DNA from: a virus
Direction: 5' to 3' (one strand)
Length of the DNA: 64,000 nt
IMG/VR virus record: IMGVR_UViG_3300008117_000049
Coordinates: 1 to 64,000 of that record
Shown here in pieces: positions 22,033 through 64,000 of the stretch. Within the stretch, counting starts at the first letter, position 1. Each line of letters begins with the position of its first letter. Under the pieces are notes generated by a model, which saw only the letters and a program-made list of their open reading frames with translations, was not told the DNA's origin and made no database searches. The translations under genes were made by a program, and so were the position numbers.

Positions 22033-22495
22033 GCGTCTCATACTGAGTGTAGACCCTGGAAAAGCAAGCGGTATTTGTCTTTTTCAATACGAAGATGGGC
22101 GAGAGCCAAAGTTAGTTTGGTCTGGTGAATACCAACAAGAAGAATATGCTGAGCCAATTAGAAGTGCTTTGCGTTCTTCTATTGAGTTTGCTATTCCGCT
22201 AGATATAGTCTGTGAAAGATTTACCATAAATGCTCAGACTGTCCGCAACGCACAAGCCCCCTACTCTCTAGAACAAATTGGTATATTAAAGCAAATTCTT
22301 TTAGACCACAAAATGCCAACAGAAAAGATTATTTTTCAATCCCCGGCCGACGCTAAGGCTATGTTTGACAATACCAAGTTGAAAAAACTAGGTTTTTGGC
22401 ACAAAGGTGGGGAAGGACACGCCCTTGACGCAATAAGACACGCCGTGCTACGATTGGTCAAACTTGGGTGGATACCCACTAAACTACTTGAATGA
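22025..22495 (+). CDS. RuvC-like Holliday junction resolvase
   Basis: 156 aa from the ATG at 22025, which overlaps the polymerase stop by 8 nt; a longer start at 21992 is in frame but unlikely. RNase H-fold acidic residues are visible: SVDPGKASGICLF (first Asp), VCERF (Glu), and GGEGHALDAIRHAVLRL (final Asp and basic helix). Such enzymes resolve branched DNA during phage replication and packaging. It belongs to the replication operon that begins with the polymerase. Confidence 0.8.
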   Translation: MPKRLILSVDPGKASGICLFQYEDGREPKLVWSGEYQQEEYAEPIRSALRSSIEFAIPLDIVCERFTINAQTVRNAQAPYSLEQIGILKQILLDHKMPTEKIIFQSPADAKAMFDNTKLKKLGFWHKGGEGHALDAIRHAVLRLVKLGWIPTKLLE

Positions 22496-22500
22496 CAGAG

Positions 22501-22546
22501 ATACTATCAAGAAATTTGAATAAATATCTAAAATCCGTGATAGTAT
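22501..22546. repeat. ATACTATC-N30-GATAGTAT unit upstream of the helicase gene
   Basis: ATACTATC (22501-22508) and its exact reverse complement GATAGTAT (22539-22546) are separated by exactly 30 A/T-rich bases. The right arm ends 26 nt before the helicase ATG and contains TGATAGTAT, which could be read as an extended -10. The same unit with the same spacing recurs at 63422-63611. It lies only 5 nt after the resolvase stop codon. Confidence 0.7.
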
Positions 22547-22572: not shown

Positions 22573-24396
22573 ATGGCTATCAATGTTGAATTAGACGAAA
22601 CTGGCTTAGACATTATTATTGACGCTGATTGGCGATACAAAGAACTTTGTAAAAGCCTACCTGGAGCCACTTTTGATGGCTCAATTAGTAGATGGAAAGT
22701 ACCTGTATCTTGGTCTGCTTGCCTTGCTCTACGCTCCACTTTTAAAGATGATTTGGTGCTTGGAAATGCTCTAAAACTTTGGGCATCAAATGAGCGTGCC
22801 ACAAGAATTGACCCCGCTATGTCTCTTAGAGATTTGGAAATCTTACCTGATGGTGAAACTGGTAATGAAGACTTGTTTCCACATCAGAGAGTTGGCGTAA
22901 AGTATTTAGCAACCGCTAAGCGTGCTTTATTGGCAGACGAGCCGGGCTTGGGTAAAACTGCTCAGGCTATTCGTGGTCTAAAAGAAATCAAAGAAAACGG
23001 TGAAGATGTATTCCCTGCTTTGATTGTTTGCCCCAATACTTTGAAGAAAAACTGGAAACGAGAGTTTGCTAAGTGGTGGCCTGAAGTAAATGTTCAGATT
23101 ATTGCTGGAACTGCTACTCAAAGACGCAAGCAATTTGAAGAGCAAGCAGATGTGTATGTAATCAACTGGGAGTCACTACGCACTCACTCACGCTTAGCAC
23201 CTTATGGTGCGATTGCTCTTGCTCGTTGTAAGGCTTGTAAGGGGCACGATGACCGTGTAACCGAAAACAGGTGTGAAGTCCATGAGCGTGAACTAAACAG
23301 AATTGATTTCAAGGCTGTGGTTGCCGATGAAATGCACCGTTCTAAAGACCCTAAGTCTAAGCAGAGCCGTGCTTTATTCGCAGCGACTGGCGATGCCAAT
23401 ATTCGTTTTGCTCTTACTGGAACTCCTATGGCAAACAATGTTTTAGATATGTGGGCTATTCTTCACTGGATAAATCCTAGAGAATTTCCCACTAAAACCA
23501 AGTGGATTGACCGTATGGTGGACACAATGCTCAACGCTTTTGGTGGAATGATGGTTCTCGGTCTAAAGCCACATATGGAAGAAGAGTTTCACAAAACTGT
23601 GGACCCCCTTATGCGTCGTATGCTAAAGGCTCGTGTGCTACCTTGGCTACCTAAAATGGTTTTTGAGCGTAGAGATGTTGAGATGTCCACTAAGCAAGCA
23701 AAAGCCTATGCTCAAATGCGAGACAATATGATTGCTTTGCTAGAAAATCCATCTGGCAGTTCTGAAATGCTGACTGCTCCAAGCGTTCTAACTCAGACGC
23801 TTAGGCTTTTACAATTTGCTAGTTCTTATGCCGAACTTGTAGTTGATGAAAAGACTGGCGAACCGAGGGCTGTTTTGTCAGCCCCATCTTGTAAAGTAGA
23901 TGCTCTAATGGATGACATCAAGAGCGGAGACTTTGGCGACGACAGCGTTGCTGTATGTGCCGTATCTCGTCAGTTGTTAGAACTTCTTAGTGCTGAATTA
24001 ACTCAGGCTAAAATTCCACACGGAATGATTACAGGTGCTCAAAGCGATGATGAACGCCAAGAGGCAATTGACGATTTCCAATCTGGTCGTATCAAGTGGA
24101 TTTTATTCACGGATAAGGCTGGTGGTGTAGGTGTTACCTTGACAGCAGCACGCAGATTGATTATGCTACAAAGACCTTGGTCTCTTGTAGACCACAAACA
24201 GGCTCTAGACCGTGTTCACCGCATTGGTTCTGAAATTCACGATTCAGTGATTATTACGGACTATGTTACTGAGGGCACTATTGAAGAGCGTGTTATTCAG
24301 GTTTTGGAAACAAAGGCTGAGAACTTTGAAGAAATTGTTCGTGATAAAAGTAGGTTATTAGACTTGCTAAAAAATGATAAAGCAGGTAAGTTGTAA
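22573..24396 (+). CDS. SNF2-family superfamily 2 helicase
   Basis: 607 aa. An N-terminal region of about 80 residues (ISRWKVPVSWSACLALR) resembles the HARP-like extension of annealing helicases. Then come motif I DEPGLGKTAQA (~125), DEMH (Walker B, ~253), LTGTPMANN (motif III, ~282) and the C-terminal ALDRVHRIGS (motif VI, ~545). A Cys/His insert CKACKGHDDRVTENRCEVH near residue 220 is a probable zinc finger. Such phage proteins remodel forks or assist recombination. It has its own ribosome site (AAAGGA) and is preceded by the long-spaced inverted repeat unit at 22501-22546, so it may be separately regulated. Confidence 0.9.
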   Translation: MAINVELDETGLDIIIDADWRYKELCKSLPGATFDGSISRWKVPVSWSACLALRSTFKDDLVLGNALKLWASNERATRIDPAMSLRDLEILPDGETGNEDLFPHQRVGVKYLATAKRALLADEPGLGKTAQAIRGLKEIKENGEDVFPALIVCPNTLKKNWKREFAKWWPEVNVQIIAGTATQRRKQFEEQADVYVINWESLRTHSRLAPYGAIALARCKACKGHDDRVTENRCEVHERELNRIDFKAVVADEMHRSKDPKSKQSRALFAATGDANIRFALTGTPMANNVLDMWAILHWINPREFPTKTKWIDRMVDTMLNAFGGMMVLGLKPHMEEEFHKTVDPLMRRMLKARVLPWLPKMVFERRDVEMSTKQAKAYAQMRDNMIALLENPSGSSEMLTAPSVLTQTLRLLQFASSYAELVVDEKTGEPRAVLSAPSCKVDALMDDIKSGDFGDDSVAVCAVSRQLLELLSAELTQAKIPHGMITGAQSDDERQEAIDDFQSGRIKWILFTDKAGGVGVTLTAARRLIMLQRPWSLVDHKQALDRVHRIGSEIHDSVIITDYVTEGTIEERVIQVLETKAENFEEIVRDKSRLLDLLKNDKAGKL

Positions 24397-26787: not shown

Positions 26788-27801
26788 ATGTCTAAAGTTT
26801 TTTTGACTGGTATGTCTGCTCCGCAAGCATCTCCAAGTGCTAATCAAAAGTCTTTTACTTTTGCTGGACTACTAAATAAAGTTTTGACCGATGCTGGGCA
26901 CGAAGTAAATTGGGCTAGCCCAAGTGTCTATATGACAAAAGACGCTTTAGAAAAGTATGACGCTGTGTTGGTTGGAGTATCTCCACTAACTAGCGTTGGT
27001 GCTAACCGAGTTTATGGTGCTCTCAATGTAATAAATGAACTAAAAGACTCTGACAAACTGACCTTATTTATTGACACCCCAAGTCCAAGTCAAATAGAAC
27101 CTAGCCTAAAAAGCGTAATTTCTAACCCAGCAACGCTTACTAAAATTTTCTTTTCTTACAGGAAAGAATATTCAAATGTTGTGGCGGATAAAGACATTTT
27201 TAATAGAGTTTTATCTGGAATCAAATATTTATATGAAAATGATTGGGCACCGACAATCTATTCAAAACTTCCCTGGAAATCAGATATTAGGATTTGTAAA
27301 AACGCAAAAACCAATTTGATTGGGATAAATCTTGATGCTCACATAATCAAAGAATTAGGGCTAAATCCAAATAGAGCACCTAAGTGGTCTGTTGATTCTT
27401 TGTCTAGCCCTTGGGCTATTTCTGCTGTGGCAGGATTAGTTTTGCCTAACTCGTTGATGAAATGGAATAAAGGCACTACTGATGCTCAAGTAGAAGAACA
27501 GATATCTCGTTCTATTGGTGCCATTGTGTCCCCTGATAAAAAAGACGGAACATATTGGAATTACAGATACATACAAGCAATGAACACAAGAACTCCAGTT
27601 ATTACTGATTGGAAAGAAAGTGGTGTTCTTGATGAAACTTGGAACTTACTCGGCAGCAGTATTGAGTCAATGAGCCAAGAAAAAAGAGATTTGGTTGCTA
27701 CTGCTCAGCGGGAAGTTTATCTCGCTAAAATCCCTAGCAAACTAGAAGCCGTAGAAATTCTACAAAATTCAATATTTAGGAGAAACAATGCCGAAAATTA
27801 A
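26788..27801 (+). CDS. Glycosyltransferase-like protein (GT-B type)
   Basis: About 337 aa from the ATG at 26788 after TAAGGAA; an in-frame ATG at 26755 lies inside the terminator stem and is rejected. The N-terminal half has alternating strands and helices (KVFLTGMSAPQASPS, AGHEVNWASPSVY, YDAVLVGVSPL). The C-terminal half has GAIVSPDKKDGTYWNYRYIQ and a following RTPVITD, which resembles the donor-binding end of GT-B glycosyltransferases. Possible substrates include modified DNA bases or virion proteins. It begins a new set of genes after the terminator. The fold assignment is tentative. Confidence 0.5.
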   Translation: MSKVFLTGMSAPQASPSANQKSFTFAGLLNKVLTDAGHEVNWASPSVYMTKDALEKYDAVLVGVSPLTSVGANRVYGALNVINELKDSDKLTLFIDTPSPSQIEPSLKSVISNPATLTKIFFSYRKEYSNVVADKDIFNRVLSGIKYLYENDWAPTIYSKLPWKSDIRICKNAKTNLIGINLDAHIIKELGLNPNRAPKWSVDSLSSPWAISAVAGLVLPNSLMKWNKGTTDAQVEEQISRSIGAIVSPDKKDGTYWNYRYIQAMNTRTPVITDWKESGVLDETWNLLGSSIESMSQEKRDLVATAQREVYLAKIPSKLEAVEILQNSIFRRNNAEN

Positions 27802-30345: not shown

Positions 30346-31551
30346 TTACAGTCTTACTGGAATTACGCTGATGTTCTCTCTTGGGTCATAATCTCCACCA
30401 AAAACCAATGTCAATAGTCCGGGCTTAGATTCTAAGCCAGCCCTATCTCTAAACCAATCTGAGCCTGGGTCAGTTGTTGGACATTGAATCCAAAGACGCT
30501 CTCCAATATCCATACTTCTAAAGTTATGGTAATGACCAGATACCCAAATGTCTGCCCCGCCTAATGCGGTTTGACCTGCTGATTGCTGAGATAAATATTT
30601 CAAGACATTGTTCTGAGTTGCTTGGTGTCCGTGAAAAATTCCAAGCAGTGTTCCATTGACGGCAACTGTCAAGGTTTGATGTCCAGAAGATGGAAAACGA
30701 AACTCTACATGAGATAGTGCTGGGTTCTCGGCACAAGCGTCTTGAACAGCGGAAGCAATTTCAACATTCCAGCCGTCTGCTGGGTCGGTAGCAACTTGGC
30801 GAGACACTTCATCGTGATTTCCATTTACTACTGGCACTATCAGCCTTTCACAATATGGGGCTAATGCTTTTATTTGTGCCATAAGTAATCTACGAGCAAC
30901 TCTTACTTGCTCTGTTAGACCTAAGTCGGATGCCGATACGCTTTGTAATCTTCCGCCTTGACTTGTATTACCTTCTACATGGTCGCCAGGCAAACCTAAA
31001 ACTATTGTTCCAAGGTTCAAACCTAACTTTTGTAATCCTTTAAATCTTTCAACTGACTGCTCTGTAAGATTTAGCAATCTATCTATTGACTCTTGAGTTC
31101 CGCCAGAGCCAGTTTTCTTACCAATCTGTTGGTCGCTAGGAAAAACTCCGTAAGCACCCTCGCCAGTAAAAGTTTTAATTCCACGGCGTGGTCGCCACTT
31201 TTTTACTTCATCAATTAATTTTTCTGCGTCTAGTCGGTCTGCTTGTTCAACGCCTACTGGAAGAAGATTTACTCTTACTGACTCAAGCCACTCTCCAGAA
31301 TAAACTTGCCAACGAGAACGACGCAGTGAAGAAACTGCCCAAGCATTTGGGTCTAAACCAAAATCTTCAAGAATTGATTTTGTATCTGGCAATTGTCCTG
31401 CTGGGCTTGGTTTGGAAACAATAAAACCACCCCTAGATTCATCAACATCTAAGCGTGGTCGCCATTCTTCTGGTGTCTGTTGTATGTATCTTCTATCAGA
31501 GCCAGTAGTTCCTGGGCTGGACATATTTTCAAGTCTGTCTGAAATGGTCAT
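30346..31551 (-). CDS. Calcineurin-like metallophosphoesterase
   Basis: 401 aa. Metal-binding motifs are visible in order: LGLPGDHVEG (~187), VNGNHDE (~245), FHGHQ (~310) and SGHYHN (~340). These are the MRE11/SbcD-like phosphoesterase signatures. The N-terminal 140 residues (WQVYSGEWLESVRVNLLP) resemble an extra domain seen in actinophage versions. It may act as a nuclease or a phosphatase. It follows an HTH gene with a one-base overlap and is the last gene of a three-gene minus operon that converges with the WhiB gene. Confidence 0.8.
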   Translation of the reverse strand: MTISDRLENMSSPGTTGSDRRYIQQTPEEWRPRLDVDESRGGFIVSKPSPAGQLPDTKSILEDFGLDPNAWAVSSLRRSRWQVYSGEWLESVRVNLLPVGVEQADRLDAEKLIDEVKKWRPRRGIKTFTGEGAYGVFPSDQQIGKKTGSGGTQESIDRLLNLTEQSVERFKGLQKLGLNLGTIVLGLPGDHVEGNTSQGGRLQSVSASDLGLTEQVRVARRLLMAQIKALAPYCERLIVPVVNGNHDEVSRQVATDPADGWNVEIASAVQDACAENPALSHVEFRFPSSGHQTLTVAVNGTLLGIFHGHQATQNNVLKYLSQQSAGQTALGGADIWVSGHYHNFRSMDIGERLWIQCPTTDPGSDWFRDRAGLESKPGLLTLVFGGDYDPRENISVIPVRL

Positions 31552-31823
31552 TATTTACCTGCTACTAAATTGAAGCAACCGCAGTCTTTACGCCTATGTC
31601 TGTCAACGGTGCTTAGGCTTATGTCATATCCTTCTTCACGAAGTATTTTTGACAGGGCTACATTTGTAACTCTGCCGGGAACTCCCTCTGGAACATCAAA
31701 AGTTTCAGTGAGAGTTTTTTTATCTTTTTCTGACAACACATTTCCAGAAAGCAAAAGACCAATCTTACAAAGTTTGATATTTGATTCTTTAGATGCCGAC
31801 TGTAATTTGTCTGATAGCGACAT
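31551..31823 (-). CDS. Helix-turn-helix DNA-binding protein
   Basis: 90 aa. The segment RVTNVALSKILREEGYDISL and following STVDRHRRKDC make a clear helix-turn-helix with a basic recognition helix. The C terminus has a Cys pair (CGCF). It overlaps the phosphoesterase by one base. Similar HTH proteins precede phosphoesterases in other actinophages, so the pair may act together. It could be a regulator or a DNA-targeting partner. Confidence 0.65.
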   Translation of the reverse strand: MSLSDKLQSASKESNIKLCKIGLLLSGNVLSEKDKKTLTETFDVPEGVPGRVTNVALSKILREEGYDISLSTVDRHRRKDCGCFNLVAGK

Positions 31824-35150: not shown

Positions 35151-36002
35151 ATGAAAATCGTTATAGCGACACCAATGTATGGCGGTAACTCAAAGAGTGT
35201 GTATGTGTCTTGTCTGACACAACTTACTGGTGAATTGGCTAAGGCTGGGCACTCAGTAAATATTATGTCCATCACAAACGAAAGTTTGATTACTAGAGCA
35301 AGAAACACTCTTACTCATATGTTTTTGAAAAGCGATGCTGACGCTTTGCTTTTTATTGATGGAGACCACGGTTGGGTTTCTGAAGACATAGTAAAAATGG
35401 TTAACTCAGGTAAAGATTTGATTGGTGCTATCTACCCAATGAAATCAATAAATTGGGATAATGTTCGCAAGGCTGCTCTTGCTGGGAAACCAAATCTAGA
35501 ACTTTACTCTGGAAATTTTGCCGTGAACTTTTTACCAGAACAGCAGAACTTTAAGGCAGATGAACCTTTCAAAGTTCGTGATGTTGGTACTGGAATGATG
35601 TTTATTCGTAGAAATGTTTTGGAAGAAATTGCTAAATCAGATTTAGTAAAGAGATACCACAACAATTCTCCTAGCGTAGAAATACCTATGGGAGAAGAAA
35701 TAGTTGAATTCTTTACAACTTACATTACCCCTGAGCCAGAATCTATTTTGCTTTCTGAAGATTATGCTTTCTGCGACATCTGGCGTAAGTTGGGACACGA
35801 TGCTTGGGCTGCTCCTTGGGTAAGAATTACTCACGCTGGAGAATTTAATTTCCCAGGTTATTTCTTGAGTACTTTAGAAATTCAAGGTCAAGTAGAAGAT
35901 GACCCAGACAAAACTCCTAGTCAGCCTGTTCCTGCTGAATTGAGTCAAGAAGATTCTTTACAGTTGTTGGATACCATTGTCGCTGATTCTGAGTCGGAAT
36001 AG
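35151..36002 (+). CDS. GT-A type glycosyltransferase (family 2-like)
   Basis: 283 aa. The start MKIVIATPMYGG and the DADALLFIDGDHGWVSEDIV segment contain the DxD-type metal/nucleotide-sugar site of GT-A enzymes. VGTGMMFIRRNVLEEI and the C-terminal LSEDYAFCDIWRKLGHDAW (acceptor loop) are typical of family 2-like transferases in phages. Likely acceptors are hypermodified bases or virion proteins. It has a structured leader and its last 86 nt overlap the serine recombinase on the other strand. Confidence 0.8.
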   Translation: MKIVIATPMYGGNSKSVYVSCLTQLTGELAKAGHSVNIMSITNESLITRARNTLTHMFLKSDADALLFIDGDHGWVSEDIVKMVNSGKDLIGAIYPMKSINWDNVRKAALAGKPNLELYSGNFAVNFLPEQQNFKADEPFKVRDVGTGMMFIRRNVLEEIAKSDLVKRYHNNSPSVEIPMGEEIVEFFTTYITPEPESILLSEDYAFCDIWRKLGHDAWAAPWVRITHAGEFNFPGYFLSTLEIQGQVEDDPDKTPSQPVPAELSQEDSLQLLDTIVADSESE

Positions 36003-36588
36003 AATCTTTATTTAGACCGTCAGCAATCTTTCTAAACGAATCCCCTTTAGAACGCTCAAAAACAATTCTGTCTTTGACTTCTTGAGGGGTTTTGTTCATC
36101 GGCCCCATGTCTTTACCCCAAACTATTCCCCTAGCCCTGCGGTCTTTGTGGACATCTTTCTGACGCTCAGAAATAATTCCACGCTCCATCTCAGCCAAGG
36201 CAGACATAATTGTGACAACAAAACGACCTTGATATGAAGAAGTGTCCAAATTTAGGTCAAGCATAACTAAACGCCAACCGTTGCTATTGGCTCGGTCAAT
36301 GATGCTCAAAAAGTCCTTTGTAGAGCGTGCTAGACGGTCTATGCGGGTGACAAATAAAGCGTGTGCTTCTTTGTTATCTAGTCTTTTTAAAGCCCCTGAA
36401 AGGGCTGGGCGACCCGAAATAGACTTACCTGAGCGACCCTCTTCTCTAACTAACTCAAACTGCGTGTAGCCAGCCAACTCTGCTGCTTGCCTAAGTTGTC
36501 GCTCTTGGACATCTAGGCTTACGCCATCACTAACTTGAAGTTGTGTAGATACACGAGCATAGAGCAAGGCTAGTTCATTATTGGTCAA
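35917..36588 (-). CDS. Small serine recombinase (resolvase/invertase type)
   Basis: 223 aa. The N-terminal catalytic domain has LLYARVSTQLQ with the nucleophilic Ser, VTRIDRLARSTKDFL, and ALAEMERGIISERQ, all diagnostic of resolvase/invertase enzymes. A short C-terminal HTH of about 45 residues (SKGDSFRKIADGLNKD) should bind DNA. It lacks the large domains of serine integrases, so it is more like a resolvase or invertase. It overlaps the previous gene head to head by 86 nt and the next minus gene by 11 nt. Its target site is not evident. Confidence 0.88.
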   Translation of the reverse strand: MTNNELALLYARVSTQLQVSDGVSLDVQERQLRQAAELAGYTQFELVREEGRSGKSISGRPALSGALKRLDNKEAHALFVTRIDRLARSTKDFLSIIDRANSNGWRLVMLDLNLDTSSYQGRFVVTIMSALAEMERGIISERQKDVHKDRRARGIVWGKDMGPMNKTPQEVKDRIVFERSKGDSFRKIADGLNKDSIPTQNQRQWYPTTVKNLLDSIQQEQAD

Positions 36589-47846: not shown

Positions 47847-48317
47847 TTAGTTTTTGATTTTGGTTCTAGCAACTCCGTAATATAGCGGATTTGAGGAACT
47901 TAGACCCAGTGCCTTAGCAATCTTGGTCAGGGAAACTCCGTTGTCTTCATACTCGTGGCGAAGAGCCTCGTGGTAATCTTCAACGCTTTTATCCTTAGCG
48001 GCCTTGATACGCTCTACTGCTTCGGCTAACTGCTCTGGAGTAGCCTTGCTACGAGAACGCTTTGTTGATGGTGCTACATCTGCCGTAGTAACACGACGAC
48101 GGACACCAGCGTAGGTAACGCCAACTGCTTGGGCAATTGCGATAAGCGAGCCACCCTTGTTGTAATACTCAACAAGTAGGCGTGTGTATTCACGACTTGC
48201 GTCGTGCTGTGGCGACTTAGTGTTGCGAGAACCATAAGCCTGTCTTGCCAAAGGCAAGAGTTCAATAAGGCGTGGGGCGTAAGCCTCTACCAGTTCGTTG
48301 TTTCTCATATATACCAT
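47847..48317 (-). CDS. DNA-binding protein with two helix-turn-helix motifs
   Basis: 156 aa. Two similar HTH units are visible: YYNKGGSLIAIAQAVGVTYA with GVRRRV, and YEDNGVSLTKIAKALGLSSS. A basic linker (STKRSRSKA) lies between them. It is a lone minus-strand gene between plus-strand blocks, divergent from the lipoprotein/tmRNA block. That layout suits a regulator or repressor. Codon use is G+C-richer than neighbours. Confidence 0.7.
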   Translation of the reverse strand: MVYMRNNELVEAYAPRLIELLPLARQAYGSRNTKSPQHDASREYTRLLVEYYNKGGSLIAIAQAVGVTYAGVRRRVTTADVAPSTKRSRSKATPEQLAEAVERIKAAKDKSVEDYHEALRHEYEDNGVSLTKIAKALGLSSSNPLYYGVARTKIKN

Positions 48318-50937: not shown

Positions 50938-51265
50938 TTTTATTGAAAAGTTTAGGGCTAGTTTGGGCGATAAAGCCGCTACTTTTGGAGCAAGCCTTGA
51001 GAAAGTATTTTCGGCGGAAGAAGAGAAATCTGAAATCATCAACGCCCCTAAAGTAATAGAAACTGAAAAAATTAAAATAGACAAAGAAGACTATGAGATT
51101 TTGGCTGTGAGTTGGAAAGAGTTGGGTGCTAGCCAAGAGCGTGAAGAAATTCGTAGCATTCTTATTCAAGCCCGACGAATAGGAAATCAGCATTCAGATA
51201 AGAAGTTTGTAGATGGAATAAACTTTGTTCTAAATGAACTAGACGAAAGAGACAAAAATAAATAG
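50924..51265 (+). CDS. Hypothetical helical protein
   Basis: 113 aa, overlapping the membrane protein gene. It is charged and helical throughout (EKFRASLGDKAATFGASLEK, SQEREEIRSILIQARRIG). The end FVDGINFVLNELDERDKNK is also helical. It precedes the large methyltransferases with a one-base overlap, so it may be a partner subunit or a regulator. Not recognised. Confidence 0.6.
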   Translation: MQEDSFIEKFRASLGDKAATFGASLEKVFSAEEEKSEIINAPKVIETEKIKIDKEDYEILAVSWKELGASQEREEIRSILIQARRIGNQHSDKKFVDGINFVLNELDERDKNK

Positions 51266-52548
51266 TGAGTAAGTACTATGAAAACGCAGACGCTGTTGTC
51301 TATCACGGGAACTGCCTAGATGAACTAAAGAATTTAGAAGATAACTCCATTGACGCTGTTGTCACCGACCCACCTTATGAACTCGGTTTTATGGGCAAAA
51401 AGTGGGACAACACTGGGATTGCTTACAATGTTGATGTTTGGCGTGAGTGTCTTAGGGTATTGAAACCTGGTGGGCATTTACTAGCCTTTGGTGGCACTAG
51501 GACTTGGCATAGGTTGGCTGTTGCTATTGAGGATGCTGGTTTTGAAGTCAGGGACAGTATTGCTTGGATTTATGGTTCTGGTTTTCCAAAGTCGCACAAC
51601 ATTAGTAAGGCGATAGATAAGTTGCAGGGCGGACAAGTAAAAGTAGGCAAGGCTTTCAAGGTCGCTGGTGAATATGGCGATAGGAATTTGCCTAATCCAA
51701 AAGGTGATAAAGATGATATGCGACATGTGGCAGATACTGATGATGCTAAGAAGTGGGATGGTTGGGGGACAGCGTTAAAACCTGCACATGAACCTATTGT
51801 TGTTGCCCGCAAACCCTTGATTGGGACTGTGGCTGAGAATGTTTTGACTTACGAAACAGGTGGGTTGAACATAGATGCAAGTCGTATAGGAACAGAAACT
51901 ATTAGTGTTCATAATGCGCCTAAAGGCAGTTTTGCTGGTGGTGAACCTGATAGGGGAAGTGATACTGAGAGTTATAGAGAACATGTTGGGCGGTGGCCTG
52001 CAAACATAATCCTAGACGAAACAACAGCCGAACTATTAGATAAACAAAGCGGAGATAGAAAAGGGATGGCTACTCAAAAAAGTTCTGCATTGAAAATTTA
52101 TGGTGGAAATTCGCTGAATGAATCTAAAACAACTTTTCCTGAAATAAGACAAGGTTTCAATGATTCTGGTGGGGCGAGCAGGTTCTTTTATGTTGCTAAA
52201 GCAAATAAGAAAGACCGAAATGAAGGTCTAGATGCACTGCCTGACCATGACTGGAGTGGAGATGGCGCTGCTATTCCTGAAAGAGCAAACAGACCTTTTA
52301 TTCCAAGCAAGAACCACCACCCGACAGTAAAACCTACTTCGCTTATGACATACCTAATCAAGTTAGTGACTCCACCTAACGGAATTGTGCTTGACCCCTT
52401 TACTGGTTCTGGTTCAACAGGTAAGGCTGCGATTAGAAACGGGTTTAGATTTGTTGGAATTGAATTGACGGAAGAATATCTGCCAATCATTACAACCAGA
52501 CTTGACCATGAAATAAAGCAAAAGACCGAGGATTTGTTTAGTGAGTAA
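51265..52548 (+). CDS. Site-specific DNA methyltransferase (beta class, DPPY)
   Basis: 427 aa from GTG. Motif IV is AVVTDPPYELGFMGKKWDN near residue 35, before motif I LDPFTGSGSTGKAAI near residue 383, so motif order is that of beta-class N4-cytosine/N6-adenine enzymes. Between them a target recognition region runs to about 330 and contains one GRWPANIILDE...GGASRFFYVAKANKK block (242-308). It shares the start MSKYYENADAVVYHGNCLDE with the next gene, so the two are tandem paralogues. Confidence 0.9.
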   Translation: MSKYYENADAVVYHGNCLDELKNLEDNSIDAVVTDPPYELGFMGKKWDNTGIAYNVDVWRECLRVLKPGGHLLAFGGTRTWHRLAVAIEDAGFEVRDSIAWIYGSGFPKSHNISKAIDKLQGGQVKVGKAFKVAGEYGDRNLPNPKGDKDDMRHVADTDDAKKWDGWGTALKPAHEPIVVARKPLIGTVAENVLTYETGGLNIDASRIGTETISVHNAPKGSFAGGEPDRGSDTESYREHVGRWPANIILDETTAELLDKQSGDRKGMATQKSSALKIYGGNSLNESKTTFPEIRQGFNDSGGASRFFYVAKANKKDRNEGLDALPDHDWSGDGAAIPERANRPFIPSKNHHPTVKPTSLMTYLIKLVTPPNGIVLDPFTGSGSTGKAAIRNGFRFVGIELTEEYLPIITTRLDHEIKQKTEDLFSE

Positions 52549-54538: not shown

Positions 54539-55810
54539 ATGACAACAATGATGCCACCCGAAAGAAAACTATTTACATCTGAATCTGTTACATCTGGACA
54601 TCCAGACAAGATTTGCGACGCTATCTCAGACGCAATTCTTGATGCTTATTTAGCAGAAGACCCTGAGAGCAGGGTTGCTGTTGAAACTGCTGTCACGACT
54701 GGAGTTGTGTTTGTGTTTGGCGAAGTTTCAAGCCACGCTAGTCCAGACATTCGCCAGATTGTTAGAGACACTATTCGCAAGATTGGCTACACATCTTCGG
54801 ACATTGGCTTTGACGCTGACACCTGTGCTGTCTTTCTAAGCGTTGGTCAGCAATCTTCAGACATCGCTGATGGAGTGAAAATGTCTGTTGAAGCACGCTC
54901 AGGTTCGCACTTGGCAGACGACCAGCAAGGTGCTGGAGACCAAGGAATTATGTTTGGTTATGCTACAGATGAGACAGATGAGATGCTGCCTATGCCAATT
55001 TACTTGGCACACAAGATTGCTCGCATTTTAGAAAAGGCTAGAACTAGCGGGTTTCTACCTTATCTAAGACCTGACGGTAAAACTCAAGTAACTGTGGGTT
55101 ATGACGGCGACATCCCTAAGTCAATTGAAACCATAGTTGTCTCTACACAACACGAGCCAAACATTAGCCAAGATGATATTGAGGAAGACATCATTATGCT
55201 TGTGCTTCCTATTCTCAAGAAAACTGAGTTGGCAATAAACAATCTAAAAATTCTGGTAAATCCAAGTGGTCAATTTATTATTGGTGGTCCAAATGGAGAT
55301 GCTGGGCTTACTGGTCGCAAAATTATTGTTGATACCTATGGTGGTATGGCTAGACACGGTGGTGGAGCCTTTTCTGGTAAAGACCCATCAAAAGTAGATA
55401 GGTCTGCTGCCTATGCTTTGCGTTGGATTGCTAAGAACATAGTTGCTGCGAAACTTGCTCGCAGAGTTGAAATTCAGGTCGCTTATGCGATTGGTAAGGC
55501 TAATCCAGTCGGTCTATACATCAACACTTTTGGAACTGGTGTAGTGAGTGATGACAGATTACTTAGTGCCATTGATAAAGTATTTGACCTTAGACCGTCT
55601 GCTATCATAGACGCTCTCCACCTAAAAGAACCTATTTACAGTAGAACTTCTGCTTACGGACATTTTGGCGACCCAGAACTTCCTTGGGAGAAACTAAATA
55701 GAGTGGTAGAACTAACTGACGCAGTAAAAGAACCTACTCAATCTAATTCTTTCAACTGGGAAGAATTTAGAGAGTGGCTTTATGGTTATGGAAAGGATAA
55801 CAATGACTAA
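54539..55810 (+). CDS. metK: S-adenosylmethionine synthetase
   Basis: 423 aa, similar in length to cellular Met[21 protein letters not shown] contains the ATP/Mg site (GHPDK), followed by [12 protein letters not shown] and the phosphate loop [19 protein letters not shown]. It makes SAM from methionine and ATP. It is located directly after three SAM-using DNA methyltransferases, which suggests it fuels them or replaces SAM lost by host shutdown. A SAM synthetase is a rare auxiliary metabolic gene in phages. It overlaps the next small gene by 8 nt. Confidence 0.95.
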
Positions 55811-63064: not shown

Positions 63065-63301
63065 CTAACTACCGGGCGACGGCTGTCCGTGTTGATTAGA
63101 CCAAACAACTTCACGAACATCTTCCAAAAGATTGAAAGACGCTTCTACCAATGCTTCGGTTTGAAGTAGTAGGTCTGCTTTAGAGTGTGGATAAAGTGGG
63201 TCAAGAAGTTGGTTATGAACCTCATTTATGACAGAAGTGGCTAATCTTATGCGACGCAAATTTGCTTCTACAAGAAGTTGATATTCGTCTAAGCCAGCCA
63301 T
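63065..63301 (-). CDS. Small helical hypothetical protein
   Basis: 78 aa. It is mostly helical (YQLLVEANLRRIRLATSVIN, LLQTEALVEASFNLLEDVRE). It ends 8 nt before the start of the large exported protein, so the two are probably one transcript. It is the first gene of the minus operon after the repeat region. No family is recognised. Confidence 0.55.
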   Translation of the reverse strand: MAGLDEYQLLVEANLRRIRLATSVINEVHNQLLDPLYPHSKADLLLQTEALVEASFNLLEDVREVVWSNQHGQPSPGS

Positions 63302-63337
63302 AAATCAATTTTACCTTAGATTTTGTAAGCGATTTTT

Positions 63338-63385
63338 ACTATACACATTTGGCTGACTTGTATAGTTTTTTGAGAAAACTATACA
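63338..63385. promoter_or_regulatory. Palindromic operator-like cluster
   Basis: TGTATAGTTTT (63359-63369) pairs with AAAACTATACA (63375-63385), a perfect 11-bp inverted repeat with a 5-bp centre. A further copy of ACTATACA lies at 63338-63345. Three copies of the same 8-mer (two direct, one inverted) are thus packed in 48 bp, 37 bp upstream of the minus-strand gene at 63301. Confidence 0.6.
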
Positions 63386-63421
63386 GGTTTTGTGGTCTTA
63401 TATTATAGAAAAAATGGTGAG

Positions 63422-63611
63422 ATACTGTGAGAAAAAATAGAAAAATAAAAAAGATTTGGGATAGTATCTAATGTATCTTTATTTTGGCCTATGTCCTAAT
63501 ACTATCGGGATATTTATATTTCTAAAAAAGATTTGCGATAGTATCCGAAAAGTGCTTTTTTCGGGATACTATTGGGTTTCACTAATTTATAAAAATGTTT
63601 TGCGATAGTAT
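63422..63611. repeat. Array of three ATACTATC-N30-GATAGTAT units
   Basis: Unit A: ATACTGTG (63422-63429, degenerate arm) and GATAGTAT (63460-63467). Unit B: ATACTATC (63499-63506) and GATAGTAT (63537-63544). Unit C: ATACTATT (63566-63573) and GATAGTAT (63604-63611). The gap is exactly 30 nt in each. The spacers also agree near their right ends: an A-run followed by GATTTGG or GATTTGC in A and B, and by TGTTTTGC in C. The same unit occurs at 22501-22546. The right arm of B and left arm of C additionally form a 14- to 15-bp hairpin (63538-63572). Confidence 0.85.
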
Positions 63612-63616
63612 GTGCG

Positions 63617-63753
63617 ACCTATCTATACCTAAAAACCTAACTGATTGTTAATCCTATACGCGCATGCATGTGTGCATGGGGGTGGCGGGAAACACAGTCA
63701 GATAGATAATTAGATAGGATAGGTTTTTTAGGTGTGTTTAGGTAAGATAGGTT
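63617..63753. repeat. Imperfect long inverted repeat with AGGTTTTT-type arms
   Basis: ACCTATCTATACCTAAAAACCTAA (63617-63640) is the inverse of sequences at 63715-63735 (GATAGGATAGGTTTTTTAGG) and again partly at 63739-63753 (TAGGTAAGATAGGTT). Between the arms lies GCGCATGCATGTGTGCATG. The structure continues the unusual character of the gene-free region. Confidence 0.45.
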
Positions 63754-63805
63754 TTGTTTTTGTGATAGCATTTTTTCAAAGCCGATTAGATAGAAAAGAG
63801 TTCAA

Positions 63806-64000
63806 ATGAGTTTTCAAGGTTTAGACATTTCAGAAGAGCAAGCGTTCAAAGATTATATAAACATCAAGCGAGCAAATAACCGTGATGGCAGGATTTGTAT
63901 TTGTGGTCATGGTATGGGATTTCACACTTTCATAGATGCTCGTGGAATTCATAAGTGTAATGCTCAAAAACAGAGTTGCCCTTGTAAGTCTCCAAGACCA
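63806..64000 (+). CDS. Small Cys/His protein (partial)
   Basis: At least 65 aa from the ATG at 63806 and open to the right edge. The motif RICICGHGMGFHTFIDARGI and a later KCNAQKQSCPCKS give Cys and His residues in a C-x-C-GH...H...C...C-x-C order, like small zinc proteins common in actinobacteriophages. A TGATAGCAT element at 63763-63771 could be its extended -10. It is the first plus-strand gene after the repeat region. Confidence 0.65.
   Translation, partial: MSFQGLDISEEQAFKDYINIKRANNRDGRICICGHGMGFHTFIDARGIHKCNAQKQSCPCKSPRP

Follow-up and report, generated by a model that had tools for sequence, protein, structure and literature searches.

We found that a pair of short inverted arms, held about 30 nt apart, is a conserved operator-like element at two unlinked loci, one directly upstream of a helicase gene and the other in a divergent intergenic region, in phages of an abundant and almost uncultured freshwater (lake-water) actinophage lineage. 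The window analysed here comprises the first 64 kb of a 135,336 bp virus record that is related to Actinomycetia phage DSL-LC01; Microbacterium phages, e.g. Pumpernickel, are more distant relatives. Based on the comparison of the units among relatives, the best reading is that they are probably the sites of a regulator. Each unit would be an operator in which two inverted half-sites, with the consensus TGNTAGTAT for most relatives, have approximately three turns of A/T-rich DNA between them and are held by the two subunits of a dimeric protein acting in trans. We propose that this protein would serve exactly two loci, the promoter of a helicase/nuclease/RecA replication-recombination operon and the divergent control region; one reader at both loci would place the replication genes and the main control region under one regulator.

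A sequence-only reading of the window had claimed four units, and all four are present (Table 1): two are exact, one carries a single mismatch and one carries two. The same reading held that the fixed spacing is unlikely to be random. Indeed, the exact pattern is matched twice versus 0 times in 100 dinucleotide shuffles, and at up to three mismatches there are 5 matches versus 0.3 expected, the fifth of which (position 2908, 3 mismatches) looks like a chance match. The search of the rest of the genome that it had suggested returned these four units and no others over the whole record at up to two mismatches, and a control with the reversed pattern over the whole record gave 0 matches. Single half-sites are not enriched (47 matches with one mismatch versus 43 expected); since the half-site alone occurs at chance frequency, the signal lies in the pairing at a fixed spacing. 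Unit 1 is located between a gene for a RuvC-like resolvase, which ends at 22495, and the helicase gene. The tandem units 2 to 4 lie in a gene-free gap, the length of which was correctly given as 504 bp (63302-63805), flanked by a leftward gene and a rightward gene for a 148-aa zinc-ribbon-like protein. Between the leftward gene and the units there is also a local inverted repeat, TTGTATAGTTTT-TTGAG-AAAACTATACAG, at 63346-63387 of the window, and a similar one is found in the relative G001.

Table 1. Window positions of the paired units and of the genes and elements considered with them
Feature	Position	Strand	Remarks
Unit 1	22501..22546	+	exact ATACTATC-N30-GATAGTAT; counterpart upstream of the helicase gene in about 60 relatives
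SNF2-type DNA helicase gene	22573..24396	+	PHROG 62 DNA helicase, E 8e-117; annotation of DSL-LC01 homologues
Candidate reader, 90-aa HTH-like protein	31551..31823	-	adjoins SbcD-like exonuclease; fits the phylogenetic profile
Alternative candidate reader, 223-aa serine recombinase	35917..36588	-	Pfam Resolvase, E 4e-33
Unit 2	63422..63467	+	two mismatches; left arm ATACTGTG, degenerate; upstream end of the tandem set
Unit 3	63499..63544	+	both arms exact
Unit 4	63566..63611	+	one mismatch, in the left arm; final unit ahead of the hairpin; homologous last unit in relatives
Conserved 125-nt hairpin	63611..63735	.	near-invariant TATACGCG loop motif; abuts unit 4
Putative extended -10 (GTGATAGCAT) of the first rightward gene	63762..63771	+	predicted from TGNTANNNT in relatives
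Rightward gene start	63806..64000	+	148 aa, ends at 64252; cysteine-rich zinc-ribbon-like protein

Is the paired unit a common motif upstream of the helicase gene? A scan of relatives with the helicase protein gave 80 loci, and about 60 of these (39 distinct) carry a unit directly upstream of the gene, with spacers of 28-31 nt, the single 28 being ambiguous. The arms vary between phages, with TACTATC/GATAGTA, TACTAGC/GCTAGTA, TACTAAC/GTTAGTA, TACTAAG/CTTAGTA and TATTAGC/GCTAATA among the pairs and TACTTAG-N31-CTAAGTA in DSL-LC01; the arm core TANTA is nearly invariant and the variation falls at arm positions 4, 6, 7 and 8. The left arm of the helicase unit is degenerate in a G027-type clade, and the unit is absent at this locus in L073, L074 and L077. 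Downstream of the helicase gene follow genes for a PD-(D/E)XK nuclease, a RecA-like and an SSB-like protein. The helicase/RecA cluster also holds the gene of a conserved 337-aa protein (window 26788-27801, + strand) with no Pumpernickel counterpart; having no PHROG match and looking glycosyltransferase-like by eye, it was dropped as a reader of the units.

The second locus shows the same architecture. Homologous intergenic regions were located via the 148-aa gene, with a profile from a narrow alignment, and most of the resulting 58 loci have one to three units (N29-32) within the 200-430 nt before this gene; the position of unit 2 is also occupied in the relatives L318 and L319, with arms TACTAGC/GATAGTA. 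In full records, the arms at the divergent locus match those at the helicase gene of the same phage: TACTAGC in G001, TACTAT[TC] in G008 and G009, TA[CT]TAGC in G017, TATTAGC in G042 and TACTTAG in DSL-LC01, where all four arms carry TACTTAG and its relatives have TACTAAG. Over ten phages, the mean arm mismatch was 0.68 for matched loci versus 1.94 for all pairings, and 0 of 200,000 permutations were as good (p<5e-6) in a test that has no phylogeny correction and in which some degenerate arms were chosen by hand. Units built from the phage's own arms (up to one mismatch, N29-32) were found at these two loci only in 25 records, with G011 as the sole exception. There (L263, 13330-13373) TACTACG-N30-CGTAGTA carries that phage's helicase left-arm word and overlaps the end of its 156-aa HTH gene; the second match in the scan of G011 corresponds to the helicase site, which the gene call had counted as coding sequence.

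That the arms drift between phages and yet agree across two unlinked loci suggests a reader acting in trans, and one dimeric DNA-binding protein probably reads the half-sites at both. The agreement and the restriction to two loci thus point, if indirectly, to inverted half-sites recognized in trans at more than one locus, as for a dimer-bound long-spaced transcriptional operator. Paired half-sites for a dimeric or looping regulator had been the first option of the sequence-only reading. With relatives compared, the paired half-sites hold up, as a spacing of 29-32 is retained while the arms drift and the arms agree across loci; looping between the loci need not be invoked, since binding inside a single unit would account for the observations.

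The hairpin beside the tandem units is itself conserved. In 8 close relatives, 19 of its 38 pairs show compensatory double changes, a level of covariation reached by 0 of 500 shuffles, and 19 of 23 relatives gave folding z-scores of -2 or below. A covariance model recovered it at the corresponding position of more distant relatives and gave no second site in this phage, and an Rfam search of the surrounding region gave no match. Both strands fold about equally well, so that it may function as RNA or as DNA (cruciform); we regard it as a candidate for a new phage structured RNA or a cruciform origin element. The centre-to-centre distances of the tandem units cluster at 56-58.5, 67-68.5 and 77-77.5 bp, i.e. 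in steps of about one helical turn (Rayleigh p 3e-4). This helical phasing is suggestive only, because a few of the pairs are probably false, the independent lineages are few, and other periods between 9.5 and 11.5 score as well. Inside a unit the phasing is not strict, since the spacer length varies by 2-3 bp. Under the operator reading, the divergent region would thus offer one to three helically phased units beside the hairpin, upstream of the rightward operon.

The main rival to a regulator site is a replication origin, which the sequence-only reading had favoured for this gap alongside a master control region: the tandem units and the hairpin would form the origin, a phage initiator would bind the units, and the helicase unit would be the initiator's regulatory site. 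We consider this rather unlikely, although an origin would suit the tandem arrangement, phasing and A/T-richness of the units and their place next to a long conserved hairpin that carries an TATACGCG motif, the second locus heads a replication/recombination operon, and in RepE/RepA-type plasmids iterons and operators share half-sites. The GC skew that was to be checked has an inflection at the region in none of eight genomes, DSL-LC01, G010 and others have a single unit, and searches of seven phages for a Rep_3 initiator (PF01051) and a ParB family protein (PF02195) found neither. In the systems of RepE-type initiators, whose iterons are direct repeats, one recognition word is repeated tandemly at one locus and forms an inverted pair at a second. 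The phage units resemble them in this double use of a single word, but every copy here is an inverted pair, with 1-3 per locus. In P1 parS, inverted boxes flank an IHF bend of about 30 bp, and here too inverted boxes stand on either side of approximately 30 bp of bendable DNA; the difference is that the phage units occupy two loci, one of them in a putative promoter, and that no ParB family protein was found in the phages searched.

At the helicase locus, the unit overlaps a promoter-like sequence. Joined to the T in front of it, the right arm of unit 1 gives TGATAGTAT, which is an extended -10, and a TG stands before the right arm in 32 of the 39 distinct helicase units versus 14 of 39 for the left arm. 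At the divergent locus the two sides are similar (right 19/30, left 17/30). Since the right-side bias is confined to the helicase locus, the half-site itself mostly reads TGNTAGTAT, with a rightward constraint added at the helicase that is consistent with a promoter. The right arm as an extended -10 (TGNTAGTAT) suggests an operator overlapping a promoter; binding to the right half-site would then block or gate RNA polymerase, and we infer repression rather than activation. At the divergent locus, TGNTANNNT lies about 15-60 nt ahead of the annotated start of the first rightward gene in most relatives, and neither rightward sigma-70 consensus promoters nor intrinsic terminators were found above chance in 63250-63850.

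Could the arms be promoters altogether? The sequence-only reading had listed divergent pairs of -10 boxes. The arms would then be back-to-back extended -10 promoters (TGNTAGTAT) firing outwards, with the spacing set by the packing of RNA polymerase. It is true that the right arm at the helicase fits an extended -10 well and is plausibly spaced from the start codon and that TGNTANNNT is used by other genes of these phages. However, arms that are not -10-like (CTTAGTAC, CTAAGTAC) persist in DSL-LC01, L051, L064 and L067, where the -10 is a distinct sequence further downstream; the helicase arm of the DSL-LC01 clade reads CTTAGTAY or CTAAGTAC, with TGATACAGT or TGGTACAGT as the -10 no more than a few nucleotides behind it. 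The arms are thus not merely -10 boxes. Furthermore, the two arms agree at the free N of the -10 more than phylogeny accounts for, and the other promoters of the phage do not have the arm sequence as units. Together with the restriction of the TG bias to the helicase locus, this makes the promoter pair improbable as a full account.

Within a unit, the two arms are coupled most clearly at position 7, where 23 of 35 distinct units pair at the tips versus 11.6 expected and left and right agree in 28 of 40 versus 14.5 expected in a phylogeny-aware simulation (p=0.002). Agreement at the other arm positions is not kept in this simulation, and changes of both arms on the same branch are not enriched over chance (1/10 at position 7). 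As the two arms share branches of change no more often than chance predicts, mismatched intermediates are tolerated and the coupling within units is statistical. A protein with identical subunits explains the agreement both within units and between loci, whereas an RNA stem explains only the former. It is therefore very doubtful that each unit forms a stem-loop in the transcript, as a processing or attenuation site: the complementary arms and their correlated change would fit, but the pairing stops at the 8-bp arms (complementarity past them was tested and none was found), which leaves a 30-nt loop, many units carry mismatches, and the arm agreement across loci is not expected of an RNA stem.

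Among described systems, the nearest match in architecture is the AimR (arbitrium) operator of the SPbeta/phi3T phages (PMC6458997, PMC9232636). AimR dimers bind 6-bp inverted boxes 25 bp apart, and the boxes differ between SPbeta and phi3T, ATCACT and ATGTTC (PMC6458997). The phage units share the short perfect inverted boxes, the unusually long A/T-rich spacer tolerated within a few bp, the tie to phage control genes and the use of different boxes in one architecture by different phages. They differ in their 8-bp arms and spacers of 28-32 as well as in the tandem arrangement, the hairpin and the second copy at the replication operon, and profiles of the AimR/RRNPP receptor (NF038310 and PF18768, RNPP_C) gave no match in 7 phages. 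The units would thus work like an AimR-type long-spaced operator without being, on present evidence, a member of that group. The BirA operator (bioO), which serves host biotin regulation and is bound by a homodimer at a promoter, has 12-bp arms and a 16-bp spacer; it likewise presents widely spaced inverted half-sites at a promoter, and it differs in arm and spacer lengths and in its role. NrdR boxes were dropped as an explanation, the arms not being palindromes in other phages.

A literature search found no described operator of this kind in actinophages, and the units would add a second case in phages to the long-spaced operators, which until now have been described for AimR. Tentatively, they may even be the sites of an undescribed class of phage regulator that spans approximately 46 bp without an AimR-like scaffold and couples a replication operon to a conserved structured element (a novel phage RNA or a cruciform origin) in one two-locus switch. 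An operator that co-changes at two loci offers a direct handle on a master regulator, and the natural series of half-site variants is useful for working out recognition.

Which protein could be the reader? Pumpernickel has the helicase and the 148-aa gene, with units at neither locus. The 90-aa HTH protein with its neighbouring exonuclease and the serine recombinase are common to the unit-bearing phages and have no detectable Pumpernickel homologue; homologues were found there for a 156-aa HTH protein, a 210-aa double-HTH protein and WhiB. Of the two HTH proteins put forward by the sequence-only reading, the 90-aa one thus fits the phylogenetic profile, while 47847-48317 has a homologue in the unit-less Pumpernickel and is the weaker candidate. 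The 90-aa protein stands beside the exonuclease in every unit-bearing record covering that region. Its AF2 model is of low confidence (pLDDT 66) and a fold search against the PDB gave no match. The phages in which its recognition helix diverges most, DSL-LC01 and G010, have unusual arms as well, which is an anecdotal observation. In DSL-LC01 the counterpart of this protein carries the annotation terminase small subunit, probably in error. The reader may also be host-encoded.

The serine recombinase is found in all complete unit-bearing relatives, including DSL-LC01, which has been called lysogenic (PMC10611076). Its divergence shows a partial correlation of 0.53 with arm divergence; the correlation of protein with arm divergence picks out no single reader and is dominated by the DSL-LC01 outlier. 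That the units are binding or crossover sites of this enzyme, as its absence from unit-less Pumpernickel might suggest, is nevertheless highly improbable: with direct-repeat sites at a distance of 41 kb, deletion would be a risk, the protein stays 68-85% identical though the arms change, and small serine recombinases use 25-34-bp sites with 12-bp arms, which the 46-bp unit is too unlike. Elsewhere in the window, the phage encodes an S-adenosylmethionine synthetase (54539-55810, + strand) next to a DNA methylase gene (51265-52548).
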